The notes under the pieces were generated by a model. That model saw only the letters and a program-made list of their open reading frames with translations, was not told the DNA's origin and ran no database searches. Both the position numbers and the translations under genes were made by a program. A stretch of DNA of 64,000 nucleotides from Crambe crambe (Eukaryota; Porifera; Demospongiae; Poecilosclerida; Crambeidae): contig OZ004581.1 in the NCBI GenBank assembly GCA_963924555.1, forward strand, positions 8,223,338 through 8,287,337. The letters are read 5' to 3'. Positions 7,401 to 64,000 of this stretch are shown one piece after another (within the stretch, counting starts at the first letter, position 1; each line of letters begins with the position of its first letter).

Positions 7401-10400
7401 ACAGTGAAGGTATGACAGGGTAAGAGAATAGACAGCATATAAGTAATAATGAAGAGAGTGAGTCAGTTAAGAATAACTTACCCACTGAAGGAATGAAATT
7501 TAGCATCAAGATACAACAGTGAAGGTATGACAGGGTAAGAGAATAGACAGCATGTAAGTAATAATGAAGAGAGTGAGTCAGTTAAGAATAACTTACCCAC
7601 TGAAGGAATGAAATTTAGCATCAAAATACGACAGTGAAAGTACGACAGGGTAAGAAAAAAGAATGTAAGTAACAATGCAGAAAGTGAGTCAGTTCATAAT
7701 AACTTACCAGCTGAAGGAACATAAAATACGACAGTAAAAGTATGACATGGTAAGAAAATAGACAGCATTTAAGTAATAATGCAGAGAGTGAGAGAATAAC
7801 TGACCCACTGAAGGTATGGAATTAAGCATCAAAATACAACAGTGAAGGTACAGAGAATAGACAGCATGTAAGTAACAATGCAGAGAGTGAGTCAGTTAAC
7901 TTACCAGCTGAAGGAATAAAATAAAGCACCAAAATACAACAGTGAAGGTACGACAGGGTAAGAGAATAGACAGCTTATAAGTAACAATGCAGAGAGTGAG
8001 TCAATTCAGATTAACTTACGAGCTAAAGGAATGAAATTAAGCATCAAAAAACGACAGTGAAGGTACGACAGGGTAAGCGAATAGACAGCATGTAAGTAAA
8101 TGTAGAGAGTGAGTCAATTCGAAATAACTTACCTCCTGAAGGAAAGAAATGAAGTGTCAAAATACGACAATGAAAGTACGACAGGGTAAGAGAATAGACA
8201 GCATGTAAGTAACAATACAGAGAGTGAGTATGTTCAGAATAACTTACCTTCTGAAGGAATGAAATTAAGCATCGAAATATGACAGTGAAGGTAAGACAGG
8301 GTAAGAGAATAAACAGCATGTAAGTAACAATGCAAAGAGTGAGTCAGTTCAGAATAACTTACCCATTGAAGGAATGTAATTTAGGACTGTGAAGGTACAA
8401 CAGGGTAAGAGAACAGCATGTAAGTAATAATGCAGAAAGTGTGTCGGTTAAGAATAACTTACCTTCTGAAGGAATGAAATTAAGCATCGAAATATGACAG
8501 TGAAGGTATTACAAAGTAAGAGAATAGACAACATGTAAGTAACAATAAAGAGAGTGAGTCAGTTCAGAATAACTTACCCACTGAAGGAATGAAATTTAAC
8601 GACAGTGAAGGTATGACAGGGTAAAAGAATAGACAGCATGTAAGTAACAATGCAGAAAGTAAGTCAGTTTATAATAACTTACCATCTGAAGGAATGAAAT
8701 TTAGCATCAAAATACGACAGTGAAAGTACGACATGGTAAGAAAATAGACAGCATGTAAGTAACAATGCAGAGAGTGAGTCAATTAAGAATAACTTACCCA
8801 CTGAAGGAATGAAATTTAATGACAGTGAAGATATGACAGGGTAAGAGAATAGACAGCATGTAAGTAACAATGCAGAGAGTGAGTCAGTTAAGAATAACTT
8901 ACCCACTGAAGGAATGAAATTTAATGACAGTGAAGGTATGACAGGGTAAGAGAACAGACAGCATGTAAGTAATAATGCAGAGAGAGAGAGAGTCAGTTCA
9001 GAATAACTTACCCACTGAAGGAATGAAATTTAATGACAGTGAAAGTATGACAGGGTAAGAGAATAGACAGCATGTAAGTAATAATGCAGAGAGAGAGTCA
9101 GTTCAGGATAACTTACCCACTGAAGGAATGAAATTTAGCATCAAAATACGACAGTGAAGGTATGCAGGGTAAGAAAATAGACAGCATGTAAGTAACAATG
9201 CAGAGAGTGAGTCAGTTCAGAATAACTTACCCACTGAATGAATGAAATTTAGCATCAAAATAAGACAGTGAAGGCATGACAGGGTAAGAGAATAGACAGC
9301 ATGTAAGTAACAATGCAGAGAGTGAGTCAATTCAGAATAACTTACCCACTGAAGGAATGAAATTTAACGACAGTGAAGGTATGACAGGGTAAGAGAATAG
9401 ACAGCATGTAAGTAACAATGCAAAGAGTGAGTCAGTTAAGAATAACTTACCCACTGAAGGAATGAAATTTAACAACAGTGAAAGTACGACAGGGTAAGAG
9501 AATAGACAGCATGTAAGTAATAATACAGAGAGTGAGTCAGTTAAGAATAACTTACCCACTGAAGGAATAAAATTTAGCATCAAAATATGACAGTGAAGGT
9601 ATGCAGGGTAAGAAAATAGACAGCATGTAAGTAACAATGAAGAGAGCGAGTCAGTTAAGAATGACTTACCCACTGAAGAATGAAATTTAGCATCAAAATA
9701 CGACAGTGAAGGTATGACAGGGTAAGAGAATAGACAGCATGTAACAATGCAGAGAGTGAGTCAGTTCAGAATAACTTACCCACTGATTTAGCATCAAAAT
9801 ACGACAGTGAAGGTATGCAGGGTAAGAAAATAGACAGCATGTAAGTAACAATGAAGAGAGTGAGTCAGTTTATAATAACTTACAAACTGAAGGAATAAAA
9901 TTTAGCATCAAAATACAACAGTGAAAGTACGACATGGTAAGAAAATAGACAGCATGTAAGTAACAATGTAGAAAGTAAATCAGTTCAGAATAATTAACTT
10001 ACTAACTGAAGGAATAAATAAAGCACCAAAATACAACAGTGAAGGTATGACAGGGTAAGAGAATAAACAGCATGTAAGTAACAATGCAGAATGTGAGTCA
10101 GTTCATAATAACTTACCAGCTGACGGAACATAAAATACGACAGTGAAAGTACGACATGATGAAAAAATAGACAGCATTTAAGTAATAATGCAGAGAGTGA
10201 GTCAGTTCAGAATAACTTACCCACTGAAGGAATGAAATTTAGCATCAAAATACAACAGTGAAGGTATGACAGGGTAAGAGAATAGACAGAATGTAAGTAA
10301 CAATGCAGAAAGTGAGTCAGTTCATAATAACTTACCAGCTGAAGGAACATAAAATACGACAGTGAAAGTACGACATGGTGAGAAAATAGACAGCATTTAA

Positions 10401-33512: not shown

Positions 33513-33826
33513 TCACACATCATAGCTATCCTCCACCTCCTTCTCCCACCAACCTACCATACAGTATTTTTGTTCGATTCTAGATGCAATATCTTTGCGA
33601 TTAACCAAAGGATCTCTGAGGGCTGTGCAGAGACTGTTCCAAGATGGTGGCTGACTTCCCTTCATCTTCAGCCACTGTTTGATGAGTTCTCTTATGCATC
33701 CATTGATGTCATGGGGGTTGTCAACTCCTATCTTCTCAACTTCAGCATCTGATAGTCCTAGGACAACTCCAAGGTCCTCCCATTCCTTCACTATGTCAAT
33801 CAATGCTGTCCTCACATTGCGAGAGG
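33513..33826 (-). CDS. Gene A death-domain exon
   Basis: Phase 1 in, stop at 33513. The pattern SRNVRTALIDIVKEWEDLG, LGLSDAEVEKIGVDNP, CIRELIKQWLKMKG and PSWNSLCTALRDP is a canonical death domain of about 85 residues, including the tryptophan in the fifth helix region. A short tail follows (VGWWEKEVEDS). Confidence 0.88.
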
Positions 33827-36800
33827 CTGCATACAGGCAAACACCCAATGGCATGACTCACAGCTATGTTGCTAAGTAACTCACTGAGTATAGCTATACA
33901 TGTGCATGATATATACTAGTAAACTATCCACTCACTTAAGGTGTCATCTCTAACTTGACTTGCTTCAACTGATTTTCTCATTGGTTGACTCTATAGACAT
34001 GCACAATGGAGGTTGTCTTAATCATAGAAGATGATGTTCTTTAACTTACATCAGGATCACTGCTTGTTCCTAGTGGTTGAGTTTTGCTGGTCAAAGATGG
34101 TGTGGACTGAGTAGGTGTTGGACTGCAACCAGGTTGAAGTTGAGGTGCACTTTGCAACTGGTTCAATGCTGAGATGAAAACATAATCATAACAATCATAT
34201 TATAGCTATCTACCATCAGTGACAGGTCAGGGAGTAGTGTTGGTTCACTACGCTGGTACCTTTCTCCAATCCTTTTTTTAACTGACACTCTAAAGGTAAG
34301 GAGGAATGATCTTGATGAGTATCCATTTATAGATAAACCACACACTTCACCTTTCTCCAATTCTTTCTTTAACTGATCAATCTCCTTGTTCTTTTTTTGT
34401 ATTTCTCTGTCCTTTAAACTCAGTTGCTGCTCATAGTGTTCCTTGTGAGTCTGCTCAAACTTGTGATAAAACAATCTGGAAAAACAACAACAACAACAAC
34501 AACAAAACAAACAAACAAACAAACAAACAAAACCCATGCATGGGTATAGTACAAGTTAGTTAATACAGTCATCACAAGTACTTTTTCTGCATGTCTTGAA
34601 TGCCTATAGTGCTCAGATGTTGGAGGAGGTGAGGTCTGGATACCATCTCAATCTCTTCCTGCCACAGGTCTAGCAGAATCTTGGCATTATTGTTGATGTA
34701 CTCCAAGTGTTCTGACATCTCCAAGACTTCTGCCAGTTCCTTCACCTTCTCACACTTCTGAACCTCAATGGTAATAACCTCAAGTTCAGAAGAAGAGACA
34801 ATAGCAATCTCCTGAAAAAACAACAACAACAACAACAACAACATTAAATAACACCCACTTATCGTAGTTAGCTACTCACCTGTCGAATACTCAACCAGAA
34901 GTTTTGGTCAATATTTAATTTTATCCGAACACTTTTTTCACAAACTAGTGTAGGATTAGAAATGGTGGCATCCTCTGGAAGGATGATGAAATGATCTCTC
35001 TGTGGACAACCTTCACACTTCAATGCAAAATTGATGCCAATCCCTGGCAGCCATTTCTTGATTTCTGTGAATGACTGTTGAATGATTTCAAGTATGGCAT
35101 GACATGAACTTATGAAGGTGGGACATTTATATTTCCTTGAGTCAATACGTTGTACGTCAATTCTCACACTAAACTTTTCCTCTGTAATGAAAAGTCTGTC
35201 CAGTTGCTGTCCAGGAGATCCAAACAAGAATTGGATTTGATTTCGATATATTTTCTTATCGACTGGTAGATGACATTTAGGATGCTTTGACATGACTGCT
35301 GCCAGTTGAGTGAAGAAGCCTGGAGGTAAGTAGTTGGTGCTGAAAACAAGATGCAATGGAATTGCAGAGTTGATGGCAGTGCTAGTCGAGTATGGATCAT
35401 CAACTTTCGGTAAATAAGGTAGCATCGATGGAACAAAATACTTCCTACCAGGACCTTTATGCTTTTCAGTACTGATTTTAGCAATAATCAAAAAATGCTC
35501 CAATAGATCCACAATCTGTTGAGGTTCCAACTTTTTTTGAGCTCTCAATACTTTTTGGTATAATGATTCTACCAGTATTCCATCCTTACGCAGCAATTTC
35601 CAGAGACGTTTGTTTCTATATTCTTCTTGCCCTTCCAGTGCCAACAAACGGGCTATTTGCTTGATGAGCCATTGAGGGTCAGCAATGACACAAGACTTCA
35701 AGCTGGGGATGTCTGAGTAGTGAAAGAACACGGCAAGATCGTGATAGAATGCAAGAATGCTAGTAAGAGTATCTTCAGGGATTAGACATGCTCTACATAA
35801 TTCCTTCACTTCCTCTAAAGGAACTACTGGCTTCTTTTGAGATCTGGTATATCTCTGGAACACTTTCCTGAACAGCAACCAAGTGATTGGAGTACGAATA
35901 GCTAAATCTTCAGTTGCAAAGTCACTCACAATCGTACGAATGAACTTAAAAGTGTCATCTTCAAGCTCTTCCTTACCAGCTGTTGTGTTATCGACTATTG
36001 CTCCATCCAGAACAATGTCAGAAAAGGCTTTACCTGTTAATTCTGAAGAAAGCTTTTCAAGAATCTCATGTTTTCTTTCCTTGACAGAAACATTGTCACC
36101 ATGTGAACCAACAGGCAGAACGAGAGGATACTTGGGGACTTCTTCATCTTCATCACTTTCTTTATCAATAATGAGCCTCTTATTCAAGAGAGTAGCATGA
36201 ATGGTGGATATCCACTGCACCATCAAGTCAAGTGTGGATATATCTTCTAGATGCGCAGTGGCTCTTCCTTTAAAATAGGTAAGACACTGATACCGATCAT
36301 GGAGATCACACCTGGCATCGAACATTAAGAGAAACAATGTCCTCGCGGTTAGAAATGCAGGAAGAATTTTAAGAAAGACTGGCTGGCCTCCACAATCCCA
36401 CACATGCAGATAAACTTCCTCTTTGATAAATGGGTCACCAGTGGTTATAACAGAAAGAATCTCTTTTAAAATCCCCACAATTAATGGGTGGTCAAACTTG
36501 GGGGCAGTTTTACTAGGTTGAATCTCACCACTGCTCACATCACTTTCACTGCTTGCATCACTTCCACTGTTCGCATCACTTCCACTGTTCGCATCACTTC
36601 CACTGTTTGCATCACTTCCTGTGGCAGAATTGGAATCTTTGTGGTCAAGAATAGTTTGTATCAACTGAGCAAGTCCTTTGATTTCATCAGCATCAGTTAT
36701 TTTTGTCCAGAATTTTCCTTCCTGGCTGCAGGCCCAGTAACTCTCAGTGGGACGGAGGGAGAATGTGTCAGCCACCTGGGTGCTGTAGGCTTCACAGGGA

Positions 36801-39800
36801 AGGGGCAGATTCATCAAACCATTGAGTAGACTGCTCTTGCCCACACCTCCAGGACCAACGATCATCACACGAGCATATGCAACCTTTGTTTCACCCTGCC
36901 CCAGGGCATTCAAGTAATCCACTGAAAATCAAATGTACAAAATAATTAATATCTATCAAAATAAAAATATTACCTTCAGTCCTTGAGGCTCGAATCTCAA
37001 TGAAAAAGGATTCAACATGGAAACGAAGTTAATTCACAAGTGAATTATGCACAAAAGACATACACTCACCATCTGAAAATATGAACACCACAACAGTGAA
37101 AATATTATGAGATTCAGTGAGCGAGCATGGACTCTCAGGTCATGACTCAATGTATGTGTTATGATTAACAATGCATTAATTTTGGTAGACAGCATGTAAG
37201 TAACAATGCAGAGAGTGAGTCAGTTCAGAATAACTTACTCGCTGAAGGAATGAAATTAAGCATCAAAGTACGAGAGTGAAGGTACGACAGGGTAAGAGAA
37301 TAGACAGCATGTAAGTAACAATGCGGAGAGTGAGTACGTTCAGAATAACTTACCAACTGAAGGAATGAAATTAAGCATCAAAATACGATGACAGGGTAAG
37401 AGAATAGACAGCATGTAAGTAACAATGCAGAGAGTGAGTACGTTCAGAATAACTTACTTGCTGAAGGAATGAAATTAAGCATCAAAAGACGACAGTGAAG
37501 ATACAATAGGGTAAGAAAATAGACAGCATGTAAGTAACCATGCAGAACAGTTCAGAATAACTTACGAACTGAAGGAATCATCAAAATACGACAGTGAAAG
37601 TACGACAGGGTAAGAGAATAGATAGCATGTAAGTAAAAATGCAGAGAGTGAATACGTTCAGAATAACTTACCGACTGAAGGAATGAAATTAAAGCATCGA
37701 ATACGACAGTGAAGGTACGACAGGATAAGAGAATAGACAGCATGTAAGTAACAATGCAGAGAGTGAGTACGTTCAGAATAACTTACTGGCTGAAGGAATC
37801 ATCAAAATACGACAGTGAAGGTAAGACAGAATAAGAGAATAGACAGCATGTAAGTAACAATGCAGAGAGTGAGTACGTTCAGAATAACTTACAAACTGAA
37901 GAAATCATCAAAATATGTCAGTGAAGGTACGACAGAGTAAGAGAATAGACAGCATGTAAGTAACAATGCAGAGAGTGAGTACGTTCAGAATAACTTACAT
38001 CCTGAAGGAATAAAATTAAGCATCAAAATACAACAGTGAAGGTAAGACAGGGTAAGAGAATAGACAGCATGTAAGTAACAATGCAGAGAGTGAGTACGTT
38101 CAGAATAACTTACTGGCTGAAGGAATCATCAAAATACGACAGTGAAGGTAAGACAGAATAAGAGAATAGACAGCATGTAAGTAACAATGCAGAGAGTGAG
38201 TACGTTCAGAATAACTTACAAACTGAAGAAATCATCAAAATATGTCAGTGAAGGTACGACAGAGTAAGAGAATAGACAGCATGTAAGTAACAATGCAGAG
38301 AGTGAGTACGTTCAGAATAACTTACATCCTGAAGGAATAAAATTAAGCATCAAAATACAACAGTGAAGGTAAGACAGGGTAAGAGAATAGACAGCATGTA
38401 AGTAACAATGCAGAGAGTGAGTACGTTCAGAATAACTTACTGCCTGAAGGAATGAAATTAAGCATCAAAATACGACAGTGAAGGTACGGCAGGGTAAGAG
38501 AATAGACAGCATGTAAGTAACAATGCAGAGAGTGAGTCAGTTCAGAGTAACTTACATACTGAAGGAATGAAATTAAGCATCGAAAGACGACAGTGAAGGT
38601 ATGGCATGATAAGAGAATAGACAGCATGTAAGTAACCATGCAGAGAGTGAGTCAGTTCAGAATAACTTACCACCTGAAGGAATCACCAAAATACGACAGT
38701 GAAGATACGACAGGATAAGAGAATAGACAGCATGTAAGTAACAATGCAGAGAGTGAGTCAGTTTAGAATAACTTACCTCCTGAAGGAATGAAATTAAGCA
38801 TCAAAATATGACAGTGAAGGTACGACAGGGCAAGAGAATAGACAGCATGTAAGTAACAATGCAGAGAGTGAGTACGTTCAGAATAACTTACCTTCTGAAG
38901 GAATGAAATTAAGCATCGAAATACGACAGTGAAGGTACGACAGGGTAAGAGAATAGACAGCATGTAAGTAACAATGCAGAGAGTGAGTACGTTCAGAATA
39001 ACTTACCTTCTGAAGGAATGAAATTAAGCATCAAAATACGACAGTGAAGGTACGACAGGGTAAGAGAATAGATAGCATGGGAGCATGTAAGTAACAAAGT
39101 CAGTTCAGAATGACTTACATCCTGAAGAAATGAAATCAAACATCAAAATACGACAGAGAAGGTAAGACAGGGTAAGAGAATAGACAGCATGTAAGTAACA
39201 ATGTAGAGAGTGAGTACGTTCAGAATAACTTACCTTCTAAAGGAATGAAATTAAGCATCGAAATACGACAGTGAAGGTAAGACAGGGTAAGAGAATAGAC
39301 AGCATGTAAGTAACAATGCAGAGAGTGAGTACGTTCAGAATAACTTACCTTCTGAAGGAATGAAATTAAGCATCAAAATACGACAGTGAAGGTACGGCAG
39401 GGTAAGAGAATAGACAGCATGTAAGTAACAATGCAGAGAGTGAGTCAGTTCAGAATAACTTACCACCTGAAGGAATGAAATTAAGCATCAAAATACGACG
39501 ACAGCATAAGAGAATAGACAGCATGTAAGGGTAAGAGAATAGACAGCATGTAAGTAACAATGCAGAGAGTGAGTCAGTTCAGAATAACTTACCGACTGAA
39601 GGAATGAAATTAATACGACGACAGCATGAGAGAATAGACAGCATGTAAGGGTAAGAGAATAGACAGCATGTAAGTAACCATGCAGAGAGTGAGTACGTTC
39701 AGAATAACTTACTGACTGAAGGAATCATCAAAATACGACAGTGAAGGTACGACAGGGTAAGAGAATAGACAGCATGTAAGTAACAATGCATAGAGTGAGT

Positions 39801-42800
39801 CAGTTTAGAATAACTTACCACCTGAAGGAATGAAATTAAGCATCAAAATATGACGACAGCATAAGAGAATAGACAGCATGTAAGGGTAAGAGAATAGACA
39901 GCATGTAAGTAACCATGCAGAGAGTGAGTACGTTCAGAATAACTTACTGGCTGAAGGAATCATCAAAATACGACAATGAAGGTACGACAGGGTAAGAGAA
40001 TAGACAGCATGTAAGTAACAATGCAGATAGTGAGTATGTCAAGAATAACTTACCACCTGAAGGAATGAAATTAAGCATCAAAATACGACAATGAAGGTAC
40101 GACAGGGTAAGAGAATAAACAGCATGTAAGTAACAATGCAGAGAGTGAGTACGTTCAGAATAACTTACCGACTGAAGGAATGAAATTAAGCATCAAAATA
40201 CGACGACAGGGTAAGAGAATAGACAGCATGTAAGGGTAAGAGAATAGACAGCATGTAAGTAACAATGCAGAGAGTGAGTACGTTCAGAATAACTTACTGG
40301 CTGAAGGAATCATCAAAATACGACAGTGAAGGTACGGCGTAAGAGAATAGACAGCATGTAAGTAACAATGCAGAGAGTGAGTACGTTCAGAATAACTTAC
40401 CGACTGAAGGAATGAAATTAAGCATCAAAATACGACGACAGGGTAAGAGAATAGACAGCATGTAAGTAACAATGCAGAGAGTGAGTACGTTCAGAATAAC
40501 TTACAAACTGAAGGAATGAAATTAAGCATCAAAATACGACAGTGAAGGTAAGACAGGGTAAGAGAATAGACAGCATGTAAGTAACAATGCAGAGAGTGAG
40601 TACGTTCAGAATAACTTACCAACTGAAGGAATGAAATTAAGCATCAAAATACGACGACAGGGTGAGAATAGACAGCATTTAAGTAACAATGCAGAGAGTG
40701 AGTACGTTCAGAATAAGGAATGAAATTAAGCATCAAAATACGACAGTGAAGGTAAGACAGGGTAAGAGAATAGACAGCATGTAAGTAACAATGCAGAGAG
40801 TGAGTACGTTCAGAATAACTTACATCCTGAAGGAATAAAATTAAGCATCAAAATACAACAGTGAAGGTAAGACAGGGTAAGAGAATAGACAGCATGTAAG
40901 TAACAATGCAGAGAGTGAGTACGTTCAGAATAACTTACCGACTGAAGGAATGAAATTAAGCATCAAAATACGACGACAGGGTAAGAGAATAGACAGCATG
41001 TAAGTAACAATGCAGAGAGTGAGTACGTTCAGAATAACTTACAATCTGAAGGAATGAAATTAAGCATCAAAATACGACAGTGAAGGTAAGACAGGGTAAG
41101 AGAATAGACAGCATGTAAGTAACAATGCAGAGAGTGAGTACGTTCAGAATAACTTACATCCTGAAGGAATAAAATTAAGCATCAAAATACAACAGTGAAG
41201 GTAAGACAGGGTAAGAGAATAGACAGCATGTAAGTAACAATGCAGAGAGTGAGTACGTTCAGAATAACTTACCTTCTGAAGGAATGAAATTAAGCATCAA
41301 AATACGACAGTGAAGGTACGGCGTAAGAGAATAGACAGCATGTAAGTAACAATGCAGAGAGTGAGTACGTTCAGAATAACTTACCGACTGAAGGAATGAA
41401 ATTAAGCATCAAAATACGACGACAGGGTAAGAGAATAGACAGCATGTAAGTAACAATGCAGAGAGTGAGTACGTTCAGAATAACTTACAAACTGAAGGAA
41501 TGAAATTAAGCATCAAAACACGACAGTGAAGGTAAGACAGGGTAAGAGAATAGACAGCATGTAAGTAACAATGCAGAGAGTGAGTACGTTCAGAATAACT
41601 TACCAACTGAAGGAATGAAATTAAGCATCAAAATACGACAGTGAAGGTAAGACAGGGTAAGAGAATAGACAGCATGTAAGTAACAATGCAGAGAGTGAGT
41701 ACGTTCAGAATAACTTACCGGCTGAAGCAAATATTAAGAATCAAAATACGACAGTGAAGGTAAGAGAGGGTGAGAGAATAGACAGCATGTAAGTAACAAT
41801 GCAGAGAGTGAGTACGTTCAGAATAACTTACTGGCTGAATGAAATATTAAGCATCAAAATACGACAGTGAAGGTACGGCAGGGTGAGAGAACAGACAGCA
41901 TGTAAGTAACGATACAGAGAGTGAGTACGTTCAGAATAACTTACCTCCTGAAGGAATTAAGCATCAAAATACGACAGTGAAGGTAATAGAGAGGATAATA
42001 GAATAGAGAGCATAGACAGTATGTAAGTAACAATGCAGACGTTCAGAATAACTTACAGTCTGAAAGAATGAAATTAAGCATCAAAATACGACAGTAAAGG
42101 TAAGAAAAGATAAGAGAATAGACAGCATGTAAGTAACAATGCAAAGAGTGAGTCAGTTCAGAATAACTTACCCACTAAAAGAATGATATTAAGCATCAAA
42201 ATACGACAGTGAAGGTATGACAGAGTAAGAGAAAAGACAGCATGTAAGTAAAAATGCAGAGAGTGAGTATAACTTACCAACTGAAGGAATAAAATTAAGC
42301 ATCAAAATACGACAGTAATGGTACAACAGAGTAAGAGAATAGACAGCATGTAAGTAATAGTTATGAAGTAAGTTGTCAAGAATAACTCACATCCTGAAGG
42401 ATCTAAGTATGTCAATGAAGGTATGACAGGGTATGATAATGAGAAGGGATAAATTAATATGTTAATGAAGTATAAGTAATGACTTACCAGGAGAAGGGGT
42501 AATAAGTTCCAACATCAAATTGAGTGTGTATGGTGTGAAAGAACATGATGCCAAATATAATAATGTCAGTCTTGAATGACTCACCTCCTGAAAGAAAACA
42601 TTGATACACATACTAACTAAAGGTCGTGATCATAACATAATTCAGCACTTTCTAATTAATAGACATTCCAGACACAATCTTAAAACCTCCTTCCTTTGTG
42701 TTGGTAAAGGGTTGACAAGTGAGAATTGGTCCCACCCGTGGGCCACATATATACACTGCAGTACAGCACAATCTGTACTTCAGGTGAGGAAGGAATGAGC

Positions 42801-43007
42801 TTCCAAGTCATTACCAGTGGTGGGTTGCATTGGTACACCCTCTATAATTAATACTCCACAACTAAATGAGCTGGTGTCACACCCTAACCCCTAGCCCCTA
42901 GCTAGCCACCTTTTTCATGTGAATGCACTCACAAAATATGGTTCAGCTCTGCTAGAAGTTGCCTTCTTCTCTGTCTCTTCGTTCTCTTTATCTATTGTAT
43001 CACTCAT
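33513..43007 (-). CDS. Gene A: microexon-array / Roc-COR / death-domain protein
   Basis: Exons in coding order: 43007-42933 (start), about 48 three-base microexons (42587-37070), 36995-36974 (22 nt), 36921-34880 (Roc-COR), 34811-34582, 34475-34351 (coiled coil), 34168-34050, 33990-33936, and 33826-33513 (death domain, stop). All borders are GT-AG and the phases fit throughout (0, 0, 1, 0, 2, 1, 0, 1). The Roc G1 loop is GPGGVGKSS, G3 is DCGGQ, and the G4-like motif is VGSHGD. Roc-COR proteins are GTPases that dimerise through COR; the terminal death domain implies coupling to death-fold signalling. With all microexons included the protein would be roughly 1,070 residues. Gene A is a tandem paralogue of gene B. 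Confidence 0.82.
33936..33990 (-). CDS. Gene A linker exon 2
   Basis: This 55-nt exon encodes a polar linker (MRKSVEASQVRDDTL), phase 0 in and 1 out. It is conserved twice in gene B (54771-54825, 51971-52025). Confidence 0.75.
34050..34168 (-). CDS. Gene A linker exon 1 (Gln/Pro/Thr-rich)
   Basis: This 119-nt exon, phase 1 in and 0 out, encodes a low-complexity linker (LNQLQSAPQLQPG then TPTQSTPSLTS). Copies in gene B are at 54887-55005 and 52085-52203. Confidence 0.75.
34351..34475 (-). CDS. Gene A coiled-coil exon
   Basis: This 125-nt exon, phase 2 in and 1 out, encodes FYHKFEQTHKEHYEQQL and LKDREIQKKNKEIDQLKKEL with heptad-like spacing, a probable short coiled coil. AAC microsatellites flank it. 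The gene B counterpart is much shorter. Confidence 0.75.
34582..34811 (-). CDS. Gene A helical (death-fold-like) exon after COR
   Basis: This 230-nt exon, phase 0 in and 2 out, encodes about 77 helical residues, including CEKVKELAEVLEMSEHLEYI, ILLDLWQEEI and HLLQHLSTIGIQDMQ. The spacing suggests a death-superfamily or similar helical bundle, but I cannot assign the subfamily. It is well conserved in gene B. Confidence 0.72.
34880..36921 (-). CDS. Gene A Roc-COR exon
   Basis: One 2,042-nt exon enters in phase 1 (G|TG GAT TAC) after TTGATTTTCAG and leaves in phase 0 at CGACAG|GTGAGT. Roc begins about 20 residues in, with MIVGPGGVGKSSLLNGL. An inserted loop carries repeated GSDANS/GSDASS hexapeptides. 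YLHVWDCGGQPVFLKILPAF is the switch II region. COR follows with TPITWLLFRKVFQRY, ELCRACLIPEDTLTSILAFY, CVIADPQWLIKQIARLL and VDLLEHFLIIAK. The C-terminal roughly 160 residues (LPPGFFTQLAAVMSKHPKC onward) are conserved with gene B. Confidence 0.9.
36974..36995 (-). CDS. Gene A 22-nt adapter exon
   Basis: The exon ATTCGAGCCTCAAGG...GAAG lies between TTTTCATTGAG and GTAATA. It encodes IRASRTE plus one base, converting phase 0 to phase 1. The same exon, two bases different, is at 58288-58309 in gene B with its own acceptor and donor. Conservation across the duplication and an exact phase fit support it. Confidence 0.75.
37070..42587 (-). repeat. Array 2: tandem codon-sized microexon units of gene A
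   Basis: About 50 units with a typical spacing of 115 bp. In sense orientation each unit is a donor (GTAAGTTATTCTGAAC), an intron body with CACTCTCTGCATTG and TTCACTGTCG, a branch-like GCTTAAT, the acceptor CATTCCTTCAG, three variable bases, then the next donor. I count 48 intact units with 19 different triplets: GAT 6, TCG 6, TCA 1, AAG 5, CCA 5, CCG 1, TTT 4, TTC 1, TTG 4, GTG 4, GAG 3, and one each of ATG, CGA, CAA, GCA, TAT, ATT, ACT and TGG. None is a stop. One unit (about 40.71 kb) has lost the donor, triplet and acceptor in a deletion, and one near 42.49 kb lacks an AG. The outermost units use GTGAGT donors. Confidence 0.9.
42933..43007 (-). CDS. Gene A first coding exon
   Basis: The exon has 25 codons from ATG 43007: MSDTIDKENEETEKK, then ATSSRAEPYF, ending TTT|GTGAGTGCATTC in phase 0. 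It is homologous to gene 1 exon 1. An in-frame stop lies just upstream, so this ATG is the first available. The following intron (42.60-42.93 kb) is also conserved with gene 1 (11.30-11.62 kb). Confidence 0.72.
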
Positions 43008-55798: not shown

Positions 55799-58700
55799 AA
55801 AAATGATGAACCTTGTGGAGTGTGTGTTTCTTTTTCCTTATAACTTCCGTCTTTGTGGTACATTAGTCTAGATGGGGGGGGGGGGGGGGGGGGGGGAGTG
55901 TTAAATCATGAGAAATTATTATTTGGCATAACTTACTTCATTTGCATGTCTTTTATTCCTATGCAACTCAAGTGGTGGAGGAGGTAAGGTCTGGCTGGAA
56001 TATTCATCATCTCCATCTCCTTCTGCCATTGTTCTAGCAGAATCATAGCATCATTTTCGATGTATGGAAGATGTTTTGACATCTCCAAGGCTTCTGCCAG
56101 TTCCTTCACCTTCTCACACTTCAGAACCTCCATGGCAATAACTTCAAGTTCAGAGGAAGAGATGTTTGCATTAGGTGGATGGTCCTGCATGAAATAGGTA
56201 AAGAGCAACAGTCATTATGAAATGAGACAAAGAGGTATGACTCACTTGTCGAATATTGAACCAAAATCTCTGGAAATCATTTAACTTTGTTTGATTCCCT
56301 TTCTGACAAATGAGGGCTGGGTTGGAAGTGGTGGGAGATGATGGAAGGATCACAAAATGATCGTTTTGTGGGCAGCCTTCACATTTCAGTGCAAAATCAA
56401 TATTGATTCCAGGAAGCCACTTTTTGATATCGGAAGATGAGTCTTGAAGTATTTCAAGAATATCACGACATGAATTTATGAAGAAGGGACAGTTGTACTC
56501 TCTTGAATTGATACGTTGTACATCAACTCTCATGCTCAACTTTTCTTCTGTAATGAAAAGTCTGTCCAGTTGCTGTCCAGGAGATCCAAACAAAAATTGG
56601 ATTTGATTTCGATATATTTTTTCATTGACAGGTAAATAACATTTCGGGTGCTTTGACATGACTGCTGCCAGTTGAGTGAAGAAGCCTGGAGGCAAGTAGT
56701 TGGTGCTGAAAACAAGATGAAAAGGAATTGCAGAGTTGATGGCAGTGCTAATTGATCGTGGATCATCAACTTTCAATAAATGAGGTAGCATGGATGGAAC
56801 AAAATACTTCATACCAGGACCCTTATGCTTTTCAATATTGATTGTAGCAATAATCAAGAAATGTTCCAACAGATCAATGATTTGTTGAGGTTGCAACTCT
56901 TTTTGAGCACTCAATACTTCCTGGCATAATGATTCTACCAATACTCCATCCTCGCGCAGCAACTTCCAGAGACGGCTGTTTCTACATTCTTCTCGCCCTT
57001 CCAGTGCTAACAAACGGGCTATTTGCTTGATGAGCCATTGAGGGTCAGCAATGACACAAGACTTCAAGCTGGGGATGTCTGAGTAGTGAAAGAACACGGC
57101 AAGATCGTGATAGAATGCAAGAATGCTAGTAAGAGTATCTTCAGGGATTAAACATGCTCTGCACAATTCCTTCACTTCCTCTAAAGGAACTACTGGCTTC
57201 TTTTGAGATCTGGCATATCTCTGGAACACTTTCCTGAACAGCAACCAAGTGATTGGAGTACGAATAGCTAAGTTTTTTGTTGCAAACTTATTCACAATTG
57301 TACGAATGAGCTTAAAAGTGTTATCTTCTTCAAGCTCTCCTTTACCAGCTGATGTATTATCGACTATTGCTCCATCCAGAACAATGTCAGAAAAAGCTTT
57401 ATCTGTAAATTCTGTAGAAAGCTTTTCAAGAATCTCATCCTTCCTTTCCTTGACAGAAAAATCATCACCGTGTGAACCAACTGGTAGAATGCGGGGATAT
57501 TTGGGGAATGCTTCATCTTTATCATTTTCTTTATCGAAAAAGAGCCTCTTATTCAAGAGAGTAGCATGAATGGTGGATATCCACTGCACCATCAGGTCCA
57601 GTGTGGATATATCTTCTAGATGCTCAGTGGCTCTTCCTTTCAAATACGTGAGTGACCGACACTGATCATGGAGATCAAGTCTGGCATCAAACATTAAGAG
57701 AAACAATGTCCTCGCTGTTAGGAATGCAGGAAGAATTTTAAGAAAGACTGGCTGGCCTCCACAATCCCACACATTCAGATAAACTTCCTCTTCAATAAAT
57801 GGGCCACCAGTGGTTATAACAGAAAAAATCTCTTTCAAAATCCCCTCAATTAATGGGTCGTCAAACTTGGGGACAATTTTACTAGATTGACTTTTGCCAC
57901 TGCTCACATCACTTCCACTGCTTGCATCACTTTCTGTGGCAGAATTAGAATCTTTGTGCTCAAGAATAGTTTGTATCAACTGAGCCATTGCCTTGATTTC
58001 ATCAGTATCAATTATTTTAGTCCAGAATTTTCCTTCCTGGCTGCAGGCCCAGTAACTCTCAGTGGGGCGGAGGGAGAACGTGTCTGCCACCTGGGTGCTG
58101 TAGGCTTCACAGGGAAGGGGCAGATTCATCAAGCCATTGAGTAGACTGCTCTTTCCCACACCTCCAGGACCAACGATCATCACACGAGCATATGCAACCT
58201 TCACTTCACCCTGCCCCAGGGCATTCAAATAATCCACTGAATATTCATATGCAATAAAATTATAATGTATTGAAGTATAATATTAACCTTCTGTCCTTGG
58301 TGCTCGAATCTAAGAATTCATCAATGAATGAAATTTTAGAGTGGATTACACATGATCATCATATAACAAACAACGCATAACAATGCAGAGTGAGTATGTT
58401 CAGAATGACTTACCACCTGAAGGAATGAAATTAAGCATCAAAATATGACAGTAAAGGTACGACAGGGTAAGAGAATAGACAGCATGTAAGTAACAATGTA
58501 GAGAGTGAGTATGTTCAGAATGACTTACCACCTGAAGGAATGAAATTAAGCATCAAAATATGACAGTAAAGGTACGACAGGGTAAGAGAATAGACAGCAT
58601 GTAAGTAACAATGTAGAGAGTGAGTATGTTCAGAATGACTTACCACCTGAAGGAATGAAATTAAGCATCAAAATATGACAGTAAAGGTACGACAGGGTAA

Positions 58701-61700
58701 GAGAATAGACAGCATGTAAGTAACAATGTAGAGAGTGAGTATGTTCAGAATAACTTACTGGCTGAAGGAATGAAATTAAACATCAAAATACGACAGTAAA
58801 GGTATGACAGGGTAAGAGAATAGACAGCATGTAAGTAACAATGCAGAGAGTGAGTCAGTTCAGAATAACTTACTCGCTGAAGGAATGAAATTAAGCATAA
58901 AAATACGACGACAGGGTAAGAGAATAGACAGCATGTAAGTAACAATGCAGAGAGAGAGTATGTAGAATAACTTACTTCCTGAAGGAATGAAATTAAGCAT
59001 CAAAATACGACGGTGAGGTACGGCAGGGTAAGAGAATAGACAGCATGTAAGTAACAATGCAGAGAGTGAGTACGTTCAGAATAACTTACCCACTGAAAAA
59101 ATGAATTAAGCATCAAAATATAACATGTGAAGATACGACAGGGTAAGAGAATAGACAGCATGTAAGTAACGATGCAGGGAGTGAGTCAGTTCAGGATAAC
59201 TTACCGGCTAAAGGAATGATCAAAATATAACATGTGAAGATACGACAGGGTAAGAGAATAGACAGCATGTAAGTAACGATGCAGGGAGTGAGTCAGTTCA
59301 GGATAACTTACCGGCTAAAGGAATGATCAAAATATAACAGTGAAGATACGACAGGGTAAGAAAATAGACAGCATGTAAGTAACAATGCAGAGAGTGAGTC
59401 AGTTCAGGATAACTTACCAGCTAAAGGAATGAAATTAAGCATCAAAATATAACAGTGAAGATACGACAGGGTAAGAGAATAGACAGCATGTAAGTAACAA
59501 TGCAGAGAGTGAGTATTTTCAGAATAACTTACTTTCTGAAGGAATAAAATTAAGCATCGAAATACGACAGTGAAGGTACAACAGGGTAAGAGAATAAACA
59601 GCATGTAAGTAACAATGCAGAGAGTGAGTACGTTCAGAATAACTTACATCCTGAAGGAATAAAAATAAAGCATCGAATATGACAGTGACGGTACAACAGG
59701 GTAAGAGAATAGACAGCATGTAAGTAACAAAGTCAGTTCAGAATAACTTACTGGCTGAAGGAATGATATTAAGCATCAAAATACGACAGTGACGGTATAA
59801 CAGAGTAAGAGAATAGACAGCATGTAAGTAACAATGCAGAGAGTGAGTCAGTTCAGAATAACTTACTAACTGTAGGAATCATCAAAATACGACAGTGAAG
59901 GTACGACAGGATAAAAGAATAGACAGCATGTAAGTAACCATGCTGAGAGTAAGTACGTTCAGAATAACTTACCGACTGAAGGAATGAAATTAAAGCATCA
60001 AATACGACAGTCAGGGTACAACAGGGTAAGAGAATAGACAGCATGTAAGTAACCATGCAGAGAGTGAGTCAGTTCAGAATAACTTACTTTCTGAAGGAAT
60101 GAAATTAAGCATCGAAATACGACAGTGAAGGTACAACAGGGTAAGAGAATAAACAGCATGTAAGTAACCATGCAGAGAGTGAGTACGTTCAGAATAACTT
60201 ACCGACTGAAGAAATGAAATTAAGCATCAAAATATAACATGTGAAGATATGACAGGGTAAGAGAATAGACAGCATGTAAGTAACCATGCTGAGAGTGAGT
60301 ACGTTCAGAATAACTTACCGACTGAAGGAATGAAATTAAAGCATCAAATACGACAGTGAGGGTACGACAGGGTAAGAGAATAGACAGCATGTAAGTAACA
60401 ATGCAGACAGTGAGTCTGTACAGAATAACTTACTTTCTGAAGGAATGAAATTAAGCATCGAAATACGACAGTGAAGGTAAAAAAGGGTAAGAGAATAAAC
60501 AGCATGTAAGTAACAATGCAGAGGGTGAGTACGTTCAGAATAACTTACCGACTGAAGGAATGAAATTAAGCATCAAAATACGACAGTGAAGGTAAGACAG
60601 GGTAAGAGAATAGACAGCATTTAAGTAACAATGCAGAGAGTGAGTCTGTACAGAATAACTTACTTGCTGAAGGAATAAAATTAAGCATCAAAATACAACA
60701 GTGAAGATACGACAGGATAAGAGAATAGACAGCATGTAAGTAACAATGTAGAGAGTGAGTCAGTTCAGAATAACTTACATCCTGAAGGAATGAAATTAAG
60801 CATCAAATACAATGGTGACAGTATAACAGAGTAAGAAAATAGACAGCATGTAAGTAACAATGCAGAGAGTGAGTCAGTTTAGAATAACTTACATACTGAA
60901 GGAATGAAATTAAGCATCAAATACGACAATGAAGGTATGACAGGGTAAGAGAATAGACAGCATGTAAGTAACAATGCAGAGAGTGAGTCAGTTCAGAATA
61001 ACTTACTCGCTGAAGGAATGAAATTAAGCATCAAAATACGACAACAGGGTAAGAGAATAGACAGCATGTAAGTAACAATGCAGAGAGTGAGTACGTTCAG
61101 AATAACTTACCGACTGAAGGAATGAAATTAAGCATCAAAATACGACAGTTAAGGTACGACAGGGTAAGAGAATAGACAGCATGTAAGTAACAATGCAGAG
61201 AGTGAGTCAGTTCAGGATAACTTACCGGCTAAAGGAATGAAATTAAGCATCAAAATATAACAGTGAAGATATGACAGGGTAAGAGAATAGACAGCATGTA
61301 AGTAAGTAACAATGCAGAGAGTGAGTCAGTTTAGAATAACTTACATACTGAAGGAATGAAATTAAGCATCAAATACGACAATGAAGGTATGACAGGGTAA
61401 GAGAATAGACAGCATGTAAGTAACAATGCAGAGAGTGAGTCAGTTCAGAATAACTTACTCGCTGAAGGAATGAAATTAAGCATCAAAATACGACAGTGAA
61501 GGTAAGACAAGGTAAGAGAAGACAGCATGTAAGTAACAATGCAGAGAGTGAGTACATTCAGAATAACTTACCGGCTAAAGGAATGAAATTAAGCATCAAA
61601 ATATAACAGTAAAGATATGACAGGGTAAGAGAATAGACAGCATGTAAGTAACAATGCAGAGAGTGAGTCAGTTCAGGATAACTTACCGGCTAAAGGAATG

Positions 61701-64000
61701 AAATTAAGCATCAAAATATAACAGTAAAGATATGACAGGGTAAGAGAATAGACAGCATGTAAATAACAATGCAGAGAGTGAGTCAATTCAGAATAACTTA
61801 CCAACTGAAGGAATGAAATTAAGCATCAGAATACGACAGGGTAAGAGAATAGACAGCATGTAAGTAACAATGCAGAGAGTGAGTACATTCAGAATAACTT
61901 ACCTCCTGAAGGAATGAAATTGAGCATCAAAATATGACAGTGAAGGTACAGCAGGGTAAGAGAATAGACAGCATGTAAGTAACAATGCAGAGAGTGAGTA
62001 CGTTCAGAATAACTTACCTCCTGAAGGAATGAAATTAAGCATCAAAATACGACAGTGAAGGTAAGACAGGGTAAGAGAATAGACAGCATTTAAGTAACAA
62101 TGCAGAGAGTGAGTCTGTACAGAATAACTTACTGCCTAAAGGAATAAAATTAAGCATCAAAATACAACAGTGAAGATACGACAGGATAAGAGAATAGACA
62201 GCATGTAAGTAACAATGCAGAGAGTGAGTCAGTTCAGAATAACTTACATCCTGAAGGAATGAAATTAAGCATCAAAATACGACAGTGAAGGTACAGCAGG
62301 GTAAGAGAATAGACAGCATGTAAGTAACAATGCAGAGAGTGAGTCAGTTCAGAATAACTTACTAACTGTAGGAATCATCAAAATACGACAGTGAAGGTAC
62401 GACAGGATAAAAGAATAGACAGCATGTAAGTAACCATGCTGAGAGTAAGTACGTTCAGAATAACTTACCGACTGAAGGAATGAAATTAAAGCATCAGATA
62501 CGACAGTCAGGGTACAACAGGGTAAGAGAATAGACAGCATGTAAGTAACAATGCAGAGAGTGAGTCTGTACAGAATAACTTACTTTCTGAAGGAATGAAA
62601 TTAAGCATCGAAATACGATAGTGAAGGTACGACAGGGTAAGAGAATAAACAGCATGTAAGTAACAATGCAGAGAGTGAGTACGTTCAGAATAACTTACCG
62701 ACTGAAGAAATGAAATTAAGCATCAAAATATAACATGTGAAGATACGACAGGGTAAGAGAACAGACAGTATGTGTAAGTAACAATGCAGAGAGTGAGTCA
62801 GTTCAGGATAACTTACCAGCTAAAGGAATGGAATTAAGCATCAAAATATAACAGTGAAGATACGACAGGGTAAGAGAATAGACAGCATGTAAGTAACAAT
62901 GCAGAGAGTGAGTATTTTCAGAATAACTTACTTTCTGAAGGAATAAAATTAAGCATCGAAATACGACAGTGAAGGTACAACAGGGTAAGAGAATAGACAG
63001 CATGTAAGTAACCATGCAGAAAGTGAGTATGTTTAGAATAACTTACCTCCTGAAGGAATAAAAATAAAGCATCGAATATGACAGTGACGGTACAACAGGG
63101 TAAGAGAATAGACAGCATGTAAGTAACAAAGTCAGTTCAGAATAACTTACTGGCTGAAGGAATGATATTAAGCATCAAAATACGACAGTGACGGTATAAC
63201 AGAGTAAGAGAATAGACAGCATGTAAGTAACCATGCAGAGAGTGAGTCAGTTCAGAATAACTTACTAACTGTAGGAATCATCAAAATACGACAGTGAAGG
63301 TAAGACAGGATAAAAGAATAGACAGCATGTAAGTAACCATGCTGAGAGTAAGTACGTTCAGAATAACTTACCGACTGAAGGAATGAAATTAAAGCATCAA
63401 ATACGACAGTCAGGGAACAACAGGGTAAGAGAATAGACAGCATGTAAGTAACAATGCAGAGAGTGAGTCTGTACAGAATAACTTACTTTCTGAAGGAATG
63501 AAATTAAGCATCGAAATACGATAGTGACGGTACAACAGGGTAAGAGAATAGACAGCATGTAAGTAACAATGCAGAGAGTGAGTCTGTACAGAATAACTTA
63601 CTTTCTGAAGGAATGAAATTAAGCATCGAAATACGACAGTGAAGGTACAGCAGGATAAGAGAATAGACAGCATGTAAGTAACAATGCAGAGAGTGAGTAC
63701 GTTCAGAATAACTTACCTCCTGAAGGAATGAAATTGAGCATCAAAATACGACAATGAAGGTACAGCAGGGTAAGAGAATAGACAGCATGTAAGTAACAAT
63801 GCAGAGAGTGAGCACGTTCAGAATAACTTACCTCCTGAAGGAATGAAATTAAGCATCAAAATACGATAGTGAAGGTACGACAGGGTAAGAGAATAGACAG
63901 CATGTAAGTAACAATGCAGAGAGTGAGTCAGTTCAGGATAATTTACCGGCTAAAGGAATGAAATTAAGCATCAAAATATAACAGTGAAGATATGACAGGG
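51559..64000 (-). CDS. Gene B: microexon-array / Roc-COR / two-death-domain protein (5' end outside window)
   Basis: Exons in coding order inside the window: about 50 microexons (to 58416-58414), 58309-58288 (22 nt), 58236-56246 (Roc-COR), 56184-55937, 55867-55812, 55445-55368, 55005-54887, 54825-54771, 54011-53694 (death domain 1), 52640-52563, 52203-52085, 52025-51971, and 51869-51559 (death domain 2, TGA). The phases fit at every junction. Compared with gene A it has an extra linker exon and an extra death domain, the latter resembling that of gene 1. The first coding exon should lie beyond 64000. Its predicted role is the same as gene A, a Roc GTPase feeding a death-fold platform; no ligand is evident. 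Confidence 0.8.
51971..52025 (-). CDS. Gene B linker exon 2, second copy
   Basis: 55 nt, phase 0 in and 1 out (MRKSVGASQVKDDTL). It precedes death domain 2. Confidence 0.7.
52085..52203 (-). CDS. Gene B linker exon 1, second copy
   Basis: 119 nt, phase 1 in and 0 out; Gln/Pro/Thr-rich, near-identical to 54887-55005. Confidence 0.7.
52563..52640 (-). CDS. Gene B KRSLIDEQP linker exon, second copy
   Basis: 78 nt, phase 1 to 1; nearly identical to 55368-55445 and to the gene 1 linker exon. Confidence 0.7.
53188..53682. mobile_element. MITE in a gene B intron, TA target duplication with empty site in gene 1
   Basis: The inverted ends CCGTAATCG... and ...AATTACGG are flanked by TA on both sides (53186-53187 and 53683-53684). 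The same flank in gene 1 (around 3030-3055) reads GATGATATCTAATTACC with a single TA, i.e. the unoccupied site. The element is about 495 bp and non-coding. It ends only 11 bp from the donor of the death-domain 1 exon. Confidence 0.82.
53694..54011 (-). CDS. Gene B death domain 1
   Basis: 318 nt, phase 1 to 1. It shows GTKYLEFGILLLEDQTGAH, INYRVFQEWLQGKG, VSWETLVSVLEDIGLNQLAE. It is homologous to the gene 1 death domain rather than to gene A's. Its donor is AAAG|GTAATT. Confidence 0.85.
54771..54825 (-). CDS. Gene B linker exon 2, first copy
   Basis: 55 nt encoding SEPTRKSVEASQVKDDTL, phase 0 in and 1 out. Confidence 0.7.
54887..55005 (-). CDS. Gene B linker exon 1, first copy
   Basis: 119 nt, phase 1 in and 0 out; nearly identical to gene A linker exon 1. 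Confidence 0.72.
55368..55445 (-). CDS. Gene B KRSLIDEQP linker exon, first copy
   Basis: 78 nt, phase 1 to 1. I found no equivalent between the coiled-coil and linker exons of gene A. Confidence 0.7.
55697..55795. repeat. (GA)n/(GGGA) microsatellite in a gene B intron
   Basis: An imperfect AG-rich tract of about 100 bp just inside the intron after exon 55812-55867. Confidence 0.9.
55812..55867 (-). CDS. Gene B shortened counterpart of the coiled-coil exon
   Basis: 56 nt, phase 2 in and 1 out, encoding LMYHKDGSYKEKETHTPQ. It aligns with the start of the gene A coiled-coil exon (LFYHKFEQTHKEHYEQQ), but the rest is missing and the donor is a weak GTTCAT. Poly-G lies just upstream and GA repeats just downstream. 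Confidence 0.5.
55876..55898. repeat. Poly-G tract
   Basis: About 22 G immediately 5' of the acceptor of exon 55812-55867, so the intron has a poly-C run close to its 3' splice site. Confidence 0.85.
55937..56184 (-). CDS. Gene B helical (death-fold-like) exon after COR
   Basis: 248 nt, phase 0 in and 2 out. SSSELEVIAMEVLKCEKVKE, LAEALEMSKHLPYI and LLHHLSCIGIKDMQ match the gene A exon. Confidence 0.75.
56246..58236 (-). CDS. Gene B Roc-COR exon
   Basis: 1,991 nt, phase 1 in and 0 out. It carries the same G1 (GPGGVGKSS), G3 (DCGGQ) and VGSHGD motifs and COR block as gene A, with high identity through most of COR. The serine/aspartate repeat in the Roc loop is shorter than in gene A. Identity drops in the C-terminal part (INSREYNCPFFINSC versus IDSRKYKCPTFISSC). 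Confidence 0.9.
58288..58309 (-). CDS. Gene B 22-nt adapter exon
   Basis: Encodes IRAPRTE plus one base between GAATTCTTAG and GTTAAT. It carries phase 0 to phase 1 into the Roc exon. Confidence 0.72.
58380..64000 (-). repeat. Array 3: tandem codon-sized microexon units of gene B (continues past window)
   Basis: I count about 50 intact units. The triplets are TCG 8, AAA 7, GAG 5, CCG 6, CCA 3, TTA 3, GAT 3, GTG 3, CGA 3, TAT 2, CTG 2 and one each of CAA, GCA, GAA, TGG and TTG (counts by eye). None is a stop. Several units use CTTTAG or CCTACAG as acceptor. Multi-unit blocks are repeated: the three GTG units at 58.41-58.66 kb are nearly identical, and the TTA-TCG-AAA series recurs at about 59.87, 62.36 and 63.27 kb. 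Confidence 0.9.

Follow-up and report, generated by a model that had tools for sequence, protein, structure and literature searches.

Can a gene encode part of its protein at one codon per exon, dozens of times in succession? The question is raised by a 64,000-nt stretch of DNA from the sponge Crambe crambe (assembly GCA_963924555.1, contig OZ004581.1, positions 8,223,338 to 8,287,337; hereafter the window), in which many repeated units on the minus strand present an acceptor and a donor splice site exactly three bases apart. For one gene in this window, here called gene 2, the original prediction was of about 48 three-nucleotide exons between 37070 and 42587, placed in compatible phase between a first coding exon and a Roc-COR body. 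A scan of the minus strand for YAG-NNN-GTRAGT returned exactly 48 sites in this interval, from 42587 down to 37072, and the outer bases of the array, 42587 and 37070, were those predicted. A tighter form of the motif, YTTYAGNNNGTAAGT, was found 127 times in the window when both strands were counted, all on the minus strand, compared with 0.06 expected from 100 dinucleotide shuffles. From the sequence analysis described below, we consider it probable that these one-codon exons are spliced in order to give a variable segment N-terminal to Roc-COR.

The introns between the gene 2 triplets have a median length of 112 nt (n = 47, range 100-201 nt), and a unit of about 115 nt would correspond to one codon plus one intron. 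The spliceosome would cut out the introns of about 112 nt and join the triplets in order, with exon 1 ahead of them and a short adapter exon behind; the product in gene 2 would run from the TTT of exon 1 through 144 nt of triplets to ATTCGAGC. Exon 1 ends in phase 0, the triplets keep that phase, the adapter shifts it by one, and the start of the Roc exon matches. Joined in this way, exon 1, the 48 triplets, the adapter and the Roc exon (from 36921) form one stop-free frame to approximately 34870, and the predicted placement of the array was thus upheld. The decoded array reads EDLWTEPPLFSKDISDLFSPSVPVSSVKKDKKEVYADFPDFPSFQLRM. Exon 1 begins with MSDTIDKENEETEKK and by inspection has no signal-like start, and the sequence flanking the first triplet recurs in gene 1, L029 and L030. 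Within one open frame of gene 2, Pfam identified COR-A (7.2e-17) and Roc (3.3e-09), with the P-loop GPGGVGKSS, and comparison of Roc-COR with PDB sequences gave 28 distinct weak matches (E<=0.01, best 6.8e-07), mostly to LRRK2 and otherwise to Roco-type chains. The Death-domain open reading frame (ORF) downstream is probably the C-terminal part of gene 2. Where an N-terminal repeat domain (LRR or ankyrin) was looked for between exon 1 and Roc, only the array and the 22-nt adapter were found, the introns lying outside the Pfam scan.

The reading was extended to eight Roc arrays on contig C1, which holds the window (g6636 in part), and to two non-Roc arrays (g8377 in part), leaving out other exon-1 loci. 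Across 11 regions, 846 of 890 GTRAGT donors have an acceptor exactly 3 nt upstream; among the other 44, 8 have it at a distance of 16, which fits exon-1 donors (exon 1 was seen in 7 of these 8), and 25 have no rule-passing acceptor. The spacing between strict exons takes 12-48 distinct values per array in the eight Roc arrays, with 115 nt as the commonest step. An exon length nearly fixed at 3 nt against a variable intron length is codon-like behaviour on the part of the triplets. The strict motif skips weaker donors (GTAAAT, GTACGT, GTAAGC) and AAG acceptors, and the union of strict and relaxed searches raised the eight Roc arrays from 766 to 836 units, with gene 2 remaining at 48. A simple pattern located exon 1 in all of the eight but g8140. 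All eight decoded strings start with E, and seven have D as their second residue. Of the seven arrays read to their end, six close with the triplet GTG and one with ATG, and the adapter and Roc exons follow. These seven hold 48-193 predicted consecutive 3-nt exons, and would give each gene its own segment of 48-193 residues N-terminal to Roc-COR, at the place where other Rocos have repeat domains.

Stop codons are absent from the 766 strict triplets of the eight C1 Roc arrays (5000 shuffles gave 97.5 on average and never fewer than 73), from the 508 triplets in unique 100-nt contexts (67.6 expected, minimum 49), and from the 812 units obtained by relaxed parsing. Four stretches on contig C11 gave no stop in 99 triplets where 6.7 were expected, a zero reached by none of 5000 shuffles, and the two non-Roc arrays gave one in 68 against a shuffle mean of 6.6. 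These counts bear on a reading in which the sites are stepping stones, comparable to those of recursive splicing, that aid the stepwise removal of one intron of about 5-24 kb and whose triplets are not meaningful when translated. The back-to-back acceptor and donor do recall ratchet sites, and there is a commonest step, that of 115 nt. Ratchets leave 0 nt, whereas 3 nt would be left here and the triplets would still reach the mRNA; as stepping stones also give no reason for stop avoidance or codon diversity, we regard this reading as very improbable.

The triplets vary within units whose introns are nearly homogeneous. Entropies of the three triplet columns are 1.95, 1.81 and 1.37 bits, compared with mostly 0-0.9 bits for columns -18 to +16 (the exceptions being -16 at 1.02, -11 at 1.37 and -14 at 0.93), and columns +17 and +18 reach 1.72 and 1.46 bits. 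All pairs of units were compared, in preference to flank-based unit alignments, because the latter may join non-orthologous units; the zero-mismatch row, biased by duplicate removal, was not used. Pairs with one mismatch in 48 flank sites (n = 1070) differed at 59% of triplet sites, and those with two or fewer (n = 3613) at 60%. As a control for triplet variability, motif sites on the antisense strand were examined, and there the triplets are nearly fixed (CAT or AGA in 97 of 107 in L029 and in 84 of 93 in L030); the forms YAG-CAT-GTAAGT and YAG-AGA-GTGAGT occur in many units, preceded by sequence that by inspection is purine-rich and without a pyrimidine tract.

This pattern is hard to reconcile with an ordinary tandem satellite in the first intron, the splice-like look of which was fixed in a founder unit and has no function. 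The units are indeed a tandem repeat, and the bare motif is present on the antisense strand as well. If the unit were a satellite, triplet and flanks would be expected to diverge to the same extent, but the triplet is saturated while the near flanks are 98% alike, and the divergence along the unit is far from uniform, since 15 of the 16 other 3-nt windows differ at only 0-12% of sites (in pairs with two or fewer mismatches in the remaining 45 sites). A satellite would also leave unexplained the lack of stops in the Roc arrays read, the depletion of AG described below, and the isolated single-codon exons that occupy the corresponding position in a paralogue on contig C20 that has no array. The decayed-looking array of gene 1 does have a stop and broken sites, yet the two non-Roc arrays together still fall below the shuffle mean. 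We find a satellite an extremely improbable explanation. The one-codon-exon reading would account for the contrast between triplet and intron in either of two ways: selection may keep the codons apart during homogenisation of the introns by recombination, or the codons may be driven to change. A separate observation concerns positions +16 to +18, where GAACTGACTC and GAACGTACTC forms are intermingled in near-identical units, as though short tracts had been exchanged.

Constraint on the splice signals was also apparent. A T-rich tract precedes the YAG and a GTRAGT donor stands behind the triplet, YAG and GTRAGT being imposed by the search. In 375 windows, each covering the 42 nt that precede an acceptor, the dinucleotide AG was counted 16 times, compared with 284 expected from composition, and the control GA 411 times against 284; this depletion was not selected by the search, although it is partly inherited from the common unit. 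No internal AG is present in 670 of 785 introns. Within the triplets, GAG and GAA stand at 96:6, AAG and AAA at 24:47 and CAG and CAA at 1:13, and neither TAG nor TAA occurs. CAG and TAG are the two best acceptors, and avoidance of NAG is strongest at these two; the bias fits avoidance of a second acceptor with the amino acid kept. An xAG triplet stands before the weak donors GTAAAT, GTACGT and GTAAGC in 18 of 34 unique units, compared with 124 of 504 for strict units (p = 0.0009 by Fisher's test, an optimistic value in that the units are related), and such a preference is expected if the triplet pairs with U1.

The splice sites also leave room for combinatorial choice, in which the triplets are real exons and each transcript takes a subset of them by skipping or mutual exclusion, giving many N-terminal segments per gene. 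The splice sites are alike across units and skipping is frame-safe. A 3-nt exon cannot plausibly carry both splicing complexes at once, and some skipping is therefore likely under this reading. C1-type introns (for example 41045-41160 on the minus strand) contain ACTTAC and CTTACC, which are complementary to their own donor GGTAAGT. A docking-type structure was unsupported: one unit folded no better than its shuffles (191 of 200 at least as stable, z +1.42, with long-range pairing outside the scope of the test), and by inspection the L031 units (C11) lack ACTTAC. An Rfam scan of the window gave nothing above cut-offs. We judge combinatorial choice unlikely, and take ordered inclusion of all or most triplets in the mRNA as the reading that would best fit the frame and codon evidence.

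Several results weigh against that reading or limit what can be drawn from its supports. Columns upstream of -20 reach 1.91 bits, ungapped register being lost there, and the +16 window differs at 50% of sites, a two-state polymorphism. The all-pairs test dropped identical contexts, which raises the triplet difference somewhat, and the search pattern itself left no freedom in the CAG and GTRAGT columns. The bare YAG-NNN-GTRAGT motif turns up on the window's antisense strand as well, with 227 occurrences that fall at two positions within the unit; for this reason the bare motif is weak evidence, and the weight lies on sense-triplet variability, frame and constraint. The depletion of TAG is confounded, with CAG depleted too (1 versus 23.8 expected); TAA (0 versus 17.8 expected) and the C11 stop result are free of this confounding. 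The shuffles ignore shared ancestry, and the sense codon ACG is also absent (0 versus 13.9). G or A endings are not set by acceptor strength alone, CGG and CGA standing at 13:21; on C11, where the donor is the same, T or A is the final base of 95 of the 99 codons; and the adapter acceptor is GAG, which is unusual, in six of seven genes and TAG in one. The decoded strings showed no helical periodicity beyond order-shuffled controls (0 of 8 arrays at p<0.05), and a coiled-coil order was dropped as evidence, since the strings resemble charged helices but their periodicity is within the shuffled range. Two genome searches gave no convincing intron-free copy, an empty outcome that is uninformative: a DNA query of one array's concatenated triplets, adapter and Roc start had no match, and a protein query from another array had a single match with an E of 0.73. 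Four other Roco subfamilies, one locus each (C3, C5, C8 and C11 at 2.9 Mb), have no array, and the idea that all Rocos of the genome carry arrays was rejected on these loci; C8 has a single isolated motif match without a pyrimidine tract, and C3 (L037 2687-3749) has, upstream of the P-loop, a 204-bp tandem repeat of 5.2 copies that is ankyrin-like by inspection. Set against these points are the frame, the near-fixed exon length, the lack of stops, the depletion of AG, the acceptor-avoiding and hypervariable triplets, and the recurrence of the pattern in other loci, in a diverged C11 clade and as lone exons on C20. With helical periodicity and intron-free copies both drawing blanks, the predicted coding of one codon per exon was borne out by most of the sequence tests and not by all.

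Close paralogues indicate how such a segment may change. Between g8192 and g8341, the flanks of which are 0.3% different, the differences are mainly inserted, lost and repeated codons and blocks of codons, such as RLPREQHSLL in three versus two copies; codons paired by their flanks differ in 6 of 104 cases, all residue-changing and some possibly mispaired. In a gene 2 unit near 40.7 kb the acceptor, triplet and donor are gone in a clean deletion, and one L029 unit shows the same loss. As each unit is a symmetric one-codon exon, its gain, loss, swap or skipping would be frame-safe, and near-identical introns may therefore recombine and edit the protein by a codon or a codon block, with selection keeping or favouring the codons that differ. 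The array segment may be the variable recognition or assembly part of a Death-domain signalling protein, and the Roc-COR and Death domains taken with this gene-specific change suggest an innate-immune or cell-death role. A broader proposal, to which we assign equal chances of being right or wrong, is that each residue is a separate genomic cassette. Codon-intron units would then come, go and change order by single amino acids, with a choice among them during splicing as a further possibility, and would form a fast, frame-safe generator of recognition diversity in an expanded Roco-Death family of dozens of genes with several thousand one-codon exons.

Genome-wide, the exact unit CAGNNNGTAAGTTATTCTGAAC was found in 2256 copies (148 forward, 2108 reverse) in 143 Mb, C11 included, and the reversed control gave none. 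Only 337 of the 836 units in the eight Roc arrays fit the exact form, and the full number of units therefore probably runs to several thousand. By scaling it would be roughly 5600, the eight arrays being no random sample. The unit pattern had no match in viral contigs and one match in bacterial and archaeal genomes (a Roseobacter metagenome-assembled genome), where about 2 were expected by chance. A genome search with the exon 1 region gave 35 matches, all on C1. With Roc as the query, 23 close Roc exons were recovered on C1, each free of inner stops over its matched part. More distant Roc exons numbered 19 on C11 (at 5.83-5.89 and 7.08-7.28 Mb), C20 and C46 contributed one each, and weaker matches lay elsewhere. 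At least 149 COR-A matches exceed the Pfam cut-off, clustered on several contigs (150 scored of 339 candidates), and the Roco expansion in this genome is by these counts very large.

The more distant paralogues bear on the origin of the arrays. The C20 Roco, the Roc of which is 42% identical, has just two single-codon exons (CCT and TGG); they stand alone in unique introns, ahead of a 19-nt adapter exon of the same kind as that following the C1 arrays. The adapter equivalents, of 19 nt on C20 and of 37 and 31 nt on C11 with boundaries placed by eye, make the same phase change. The four C11 stretches, some of them perhaps partial, have 17 units (16 of them strict), 34, 19 and 29, and their intron is partly different from the C1 type but shares the start GTAAGTTATTCTGAAC. 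The two-exon state of C20 is plausibly ancestral, and the comparison suggests a possible order within one Roco clade from lone exon to short array to long array. An introner-type origin, which concerns how the arrays arose and not their use, would instead have an older coding exon invaded by a mobile intron at each of its codon boundaries. Diverse codons between near-identical introns are what this would leave behind, but some exons of 6, 9 or 12 nt should then be left as well, and only one 12-nt candidate was found in 890 donors and one 9-nt candidate among the C11 donors. Many-unit blocks have been duplicated together and the C20 lone exons have unlike introns, both of which fit duplication of units, and an introner-type origin is in our view decidedly unlikely.

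The features of the three arrays in the window, which together hold 140 strict units on the minus strand, are listed in Table 1.

Table 1. Positions in the window of the three single-codon-exon arrays and the exons and ORFs associated with them
Feature	Position	Strand	Basis or remark
Gene 2 exon 1 (MSDTIDKENEETEKKATSSRAEPYF)	42933..43007	-	First coding; ends phase 0 at GTGAGT
Gene 2 array, 48 strict predicted single-codon exons	37070..42587	-	YAG-NNN-GTRAGT scan
Gene 2 first predicted single-codon exon, GAG	42585..42587	-	Flanks differ from array unit
Gene 2 last predicted single-codon exon, ATG	37070..37072	-	Flanks differ from array unit
Gene 2 adapter exon ATTCGAGCCTCAAGGACTGAAG, 22 nt	36974..36995	-	Phase 0 in, phase 1 out
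Gene 2 Roc-COR exon	34880..36921	-	Pfam and frame; candidate donor GTGAGT at 34879
Death-domain ORF downstream of gene 2 Roc-COR exon	33513..33857	-	Pfam Death 8e-07
Gene 3 array	58414..64000	-	49 strict units in window; extends past window edge to C1:8291472
Gene 3 adapter exon ATTCGAGCACCAAGGACAGAAG	58288..58309	-	Frame
Gene 3 open frame with Roc-COR exon	56171..58282	-	ORF start upstream of exon
Gene 1 array, 43 strict units, tryptophan-rich	5826..11291	-	TGA triplet at 10665, several damaged units
Gene 1 post-array exon, phase 0, transmembrane-like by inspection	5652..5724	-	Body unlike Roc genes

The gene 3 array has in full 85 strict or 86 union units. Gene 1 (5652-11658, minus strand) has a similar exon 1 and array, followed by the transmembrane-like exon and an Ig domain (I-set 3.9e-10), with ZU5 and Death matches under the Pfam cut-offs; its array is probably decaying. 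Near its first exon, two adjoining open frames lie at 12302-14906 on the minus strand, the second with a weak match to a MULE transposase (0.0018, below cut-off), and these are perhaps a DNA transposon. An 18-bp tandem repeat that encodes SDANSG-type repeats lies within the Roc exon of gene 2 (36528-36619, 5.1 copies) and of gene 3 (57897-57932, 2.0 copies). Identical 120-codon open frames at 30229-30591 and 48163-48525 on the minus strand, with a 16-bp tandem repeat shared nearby, point to a recent segmental duplication between the gene 2 and gene 3 neighbourhoods.

If the reading of one codon per exon is true, these genes would be an extreme of splicing, with up to approximately 190 consecutive one-codon exons per gene separated by ordinary introns of about 112 nt, every one of which would have to be joined correctly. 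They would be a test of the spliceosome on exons too short for both splice-site complexes, and their product would be a protein evolvable by single codons without frameshift. As exons of 3 nt usually escape aligners and gene finders, standard annotation could then miss such segments, and similar arrays may hide in other genomes. The original prediction came with the remark that single-codon microexons are known singly in animals and that a tandem array of dozens was unfamiliar. In the open-licence PMC literature, single 3-nt exons and schistosome micro-exon genes were found and no array of single-codon exons, subscription papers and preprints being outside its coverage. As far as we could find, the arrayed one-codon-exon architecture is undescribed.

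Several known systems share parts of this architecture. The Roco family includes LRRK2, MFHAS1 and prokaryotic Roco, and N-terminal LRR or ankyrin repeats are common in it, though not universal. The genes described here have in common with it the Roc-COR module, weak sequence matches to LRRK2 and Roco-type chains, and a Death domain downstream; they differ in the predicted one-codon-per-exon segment N-terminal of Roc, where the C3 Roco locus has its 204-bp repeat instead. Recursive-splicing ratchet sites are exons of zero length and contribute no base to the mRNA; in both cases an acceptor lies directly before a donor, but here one codon would be left each time. In Dscam-type clusters each exon specifies part of a domain, and the choice of exons is mutually exclusive within a cluster. 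Both systems have tandem duplicates of an exon that share a position in the gene and have diverged, whereas here the exons would be single codons, and the one folded unit had no local structure. Individual 3-nt microexons occur in animals, for example in RPS24, and those known are isolated in unique sequence. A single codon serves as an exon there as it would here, the C20 paralogue having two of them and the arrays 16 to 193. For the micro-exon genes (MEGs) of Schistosoma, one paper describes exons of 6-81 bp in its text or 3-81 bp in its abstract, mostly of 15 bp and 10-20 per gene, introns of 100 to almost 5000 bp, and secreted products (PMC10526429). MEGs resemble the sponge genes in having a coding region that consists largely of very short exons, the lengths of which are for the most part divisible by three, so that they can be skipped without loss of frame, and the sponge genes differ in having predicted exons of 3 nt, 48-193 of them per C1 Roc gene, set between near-identical introns of about 112 nt and joined to a Roc-COR body.

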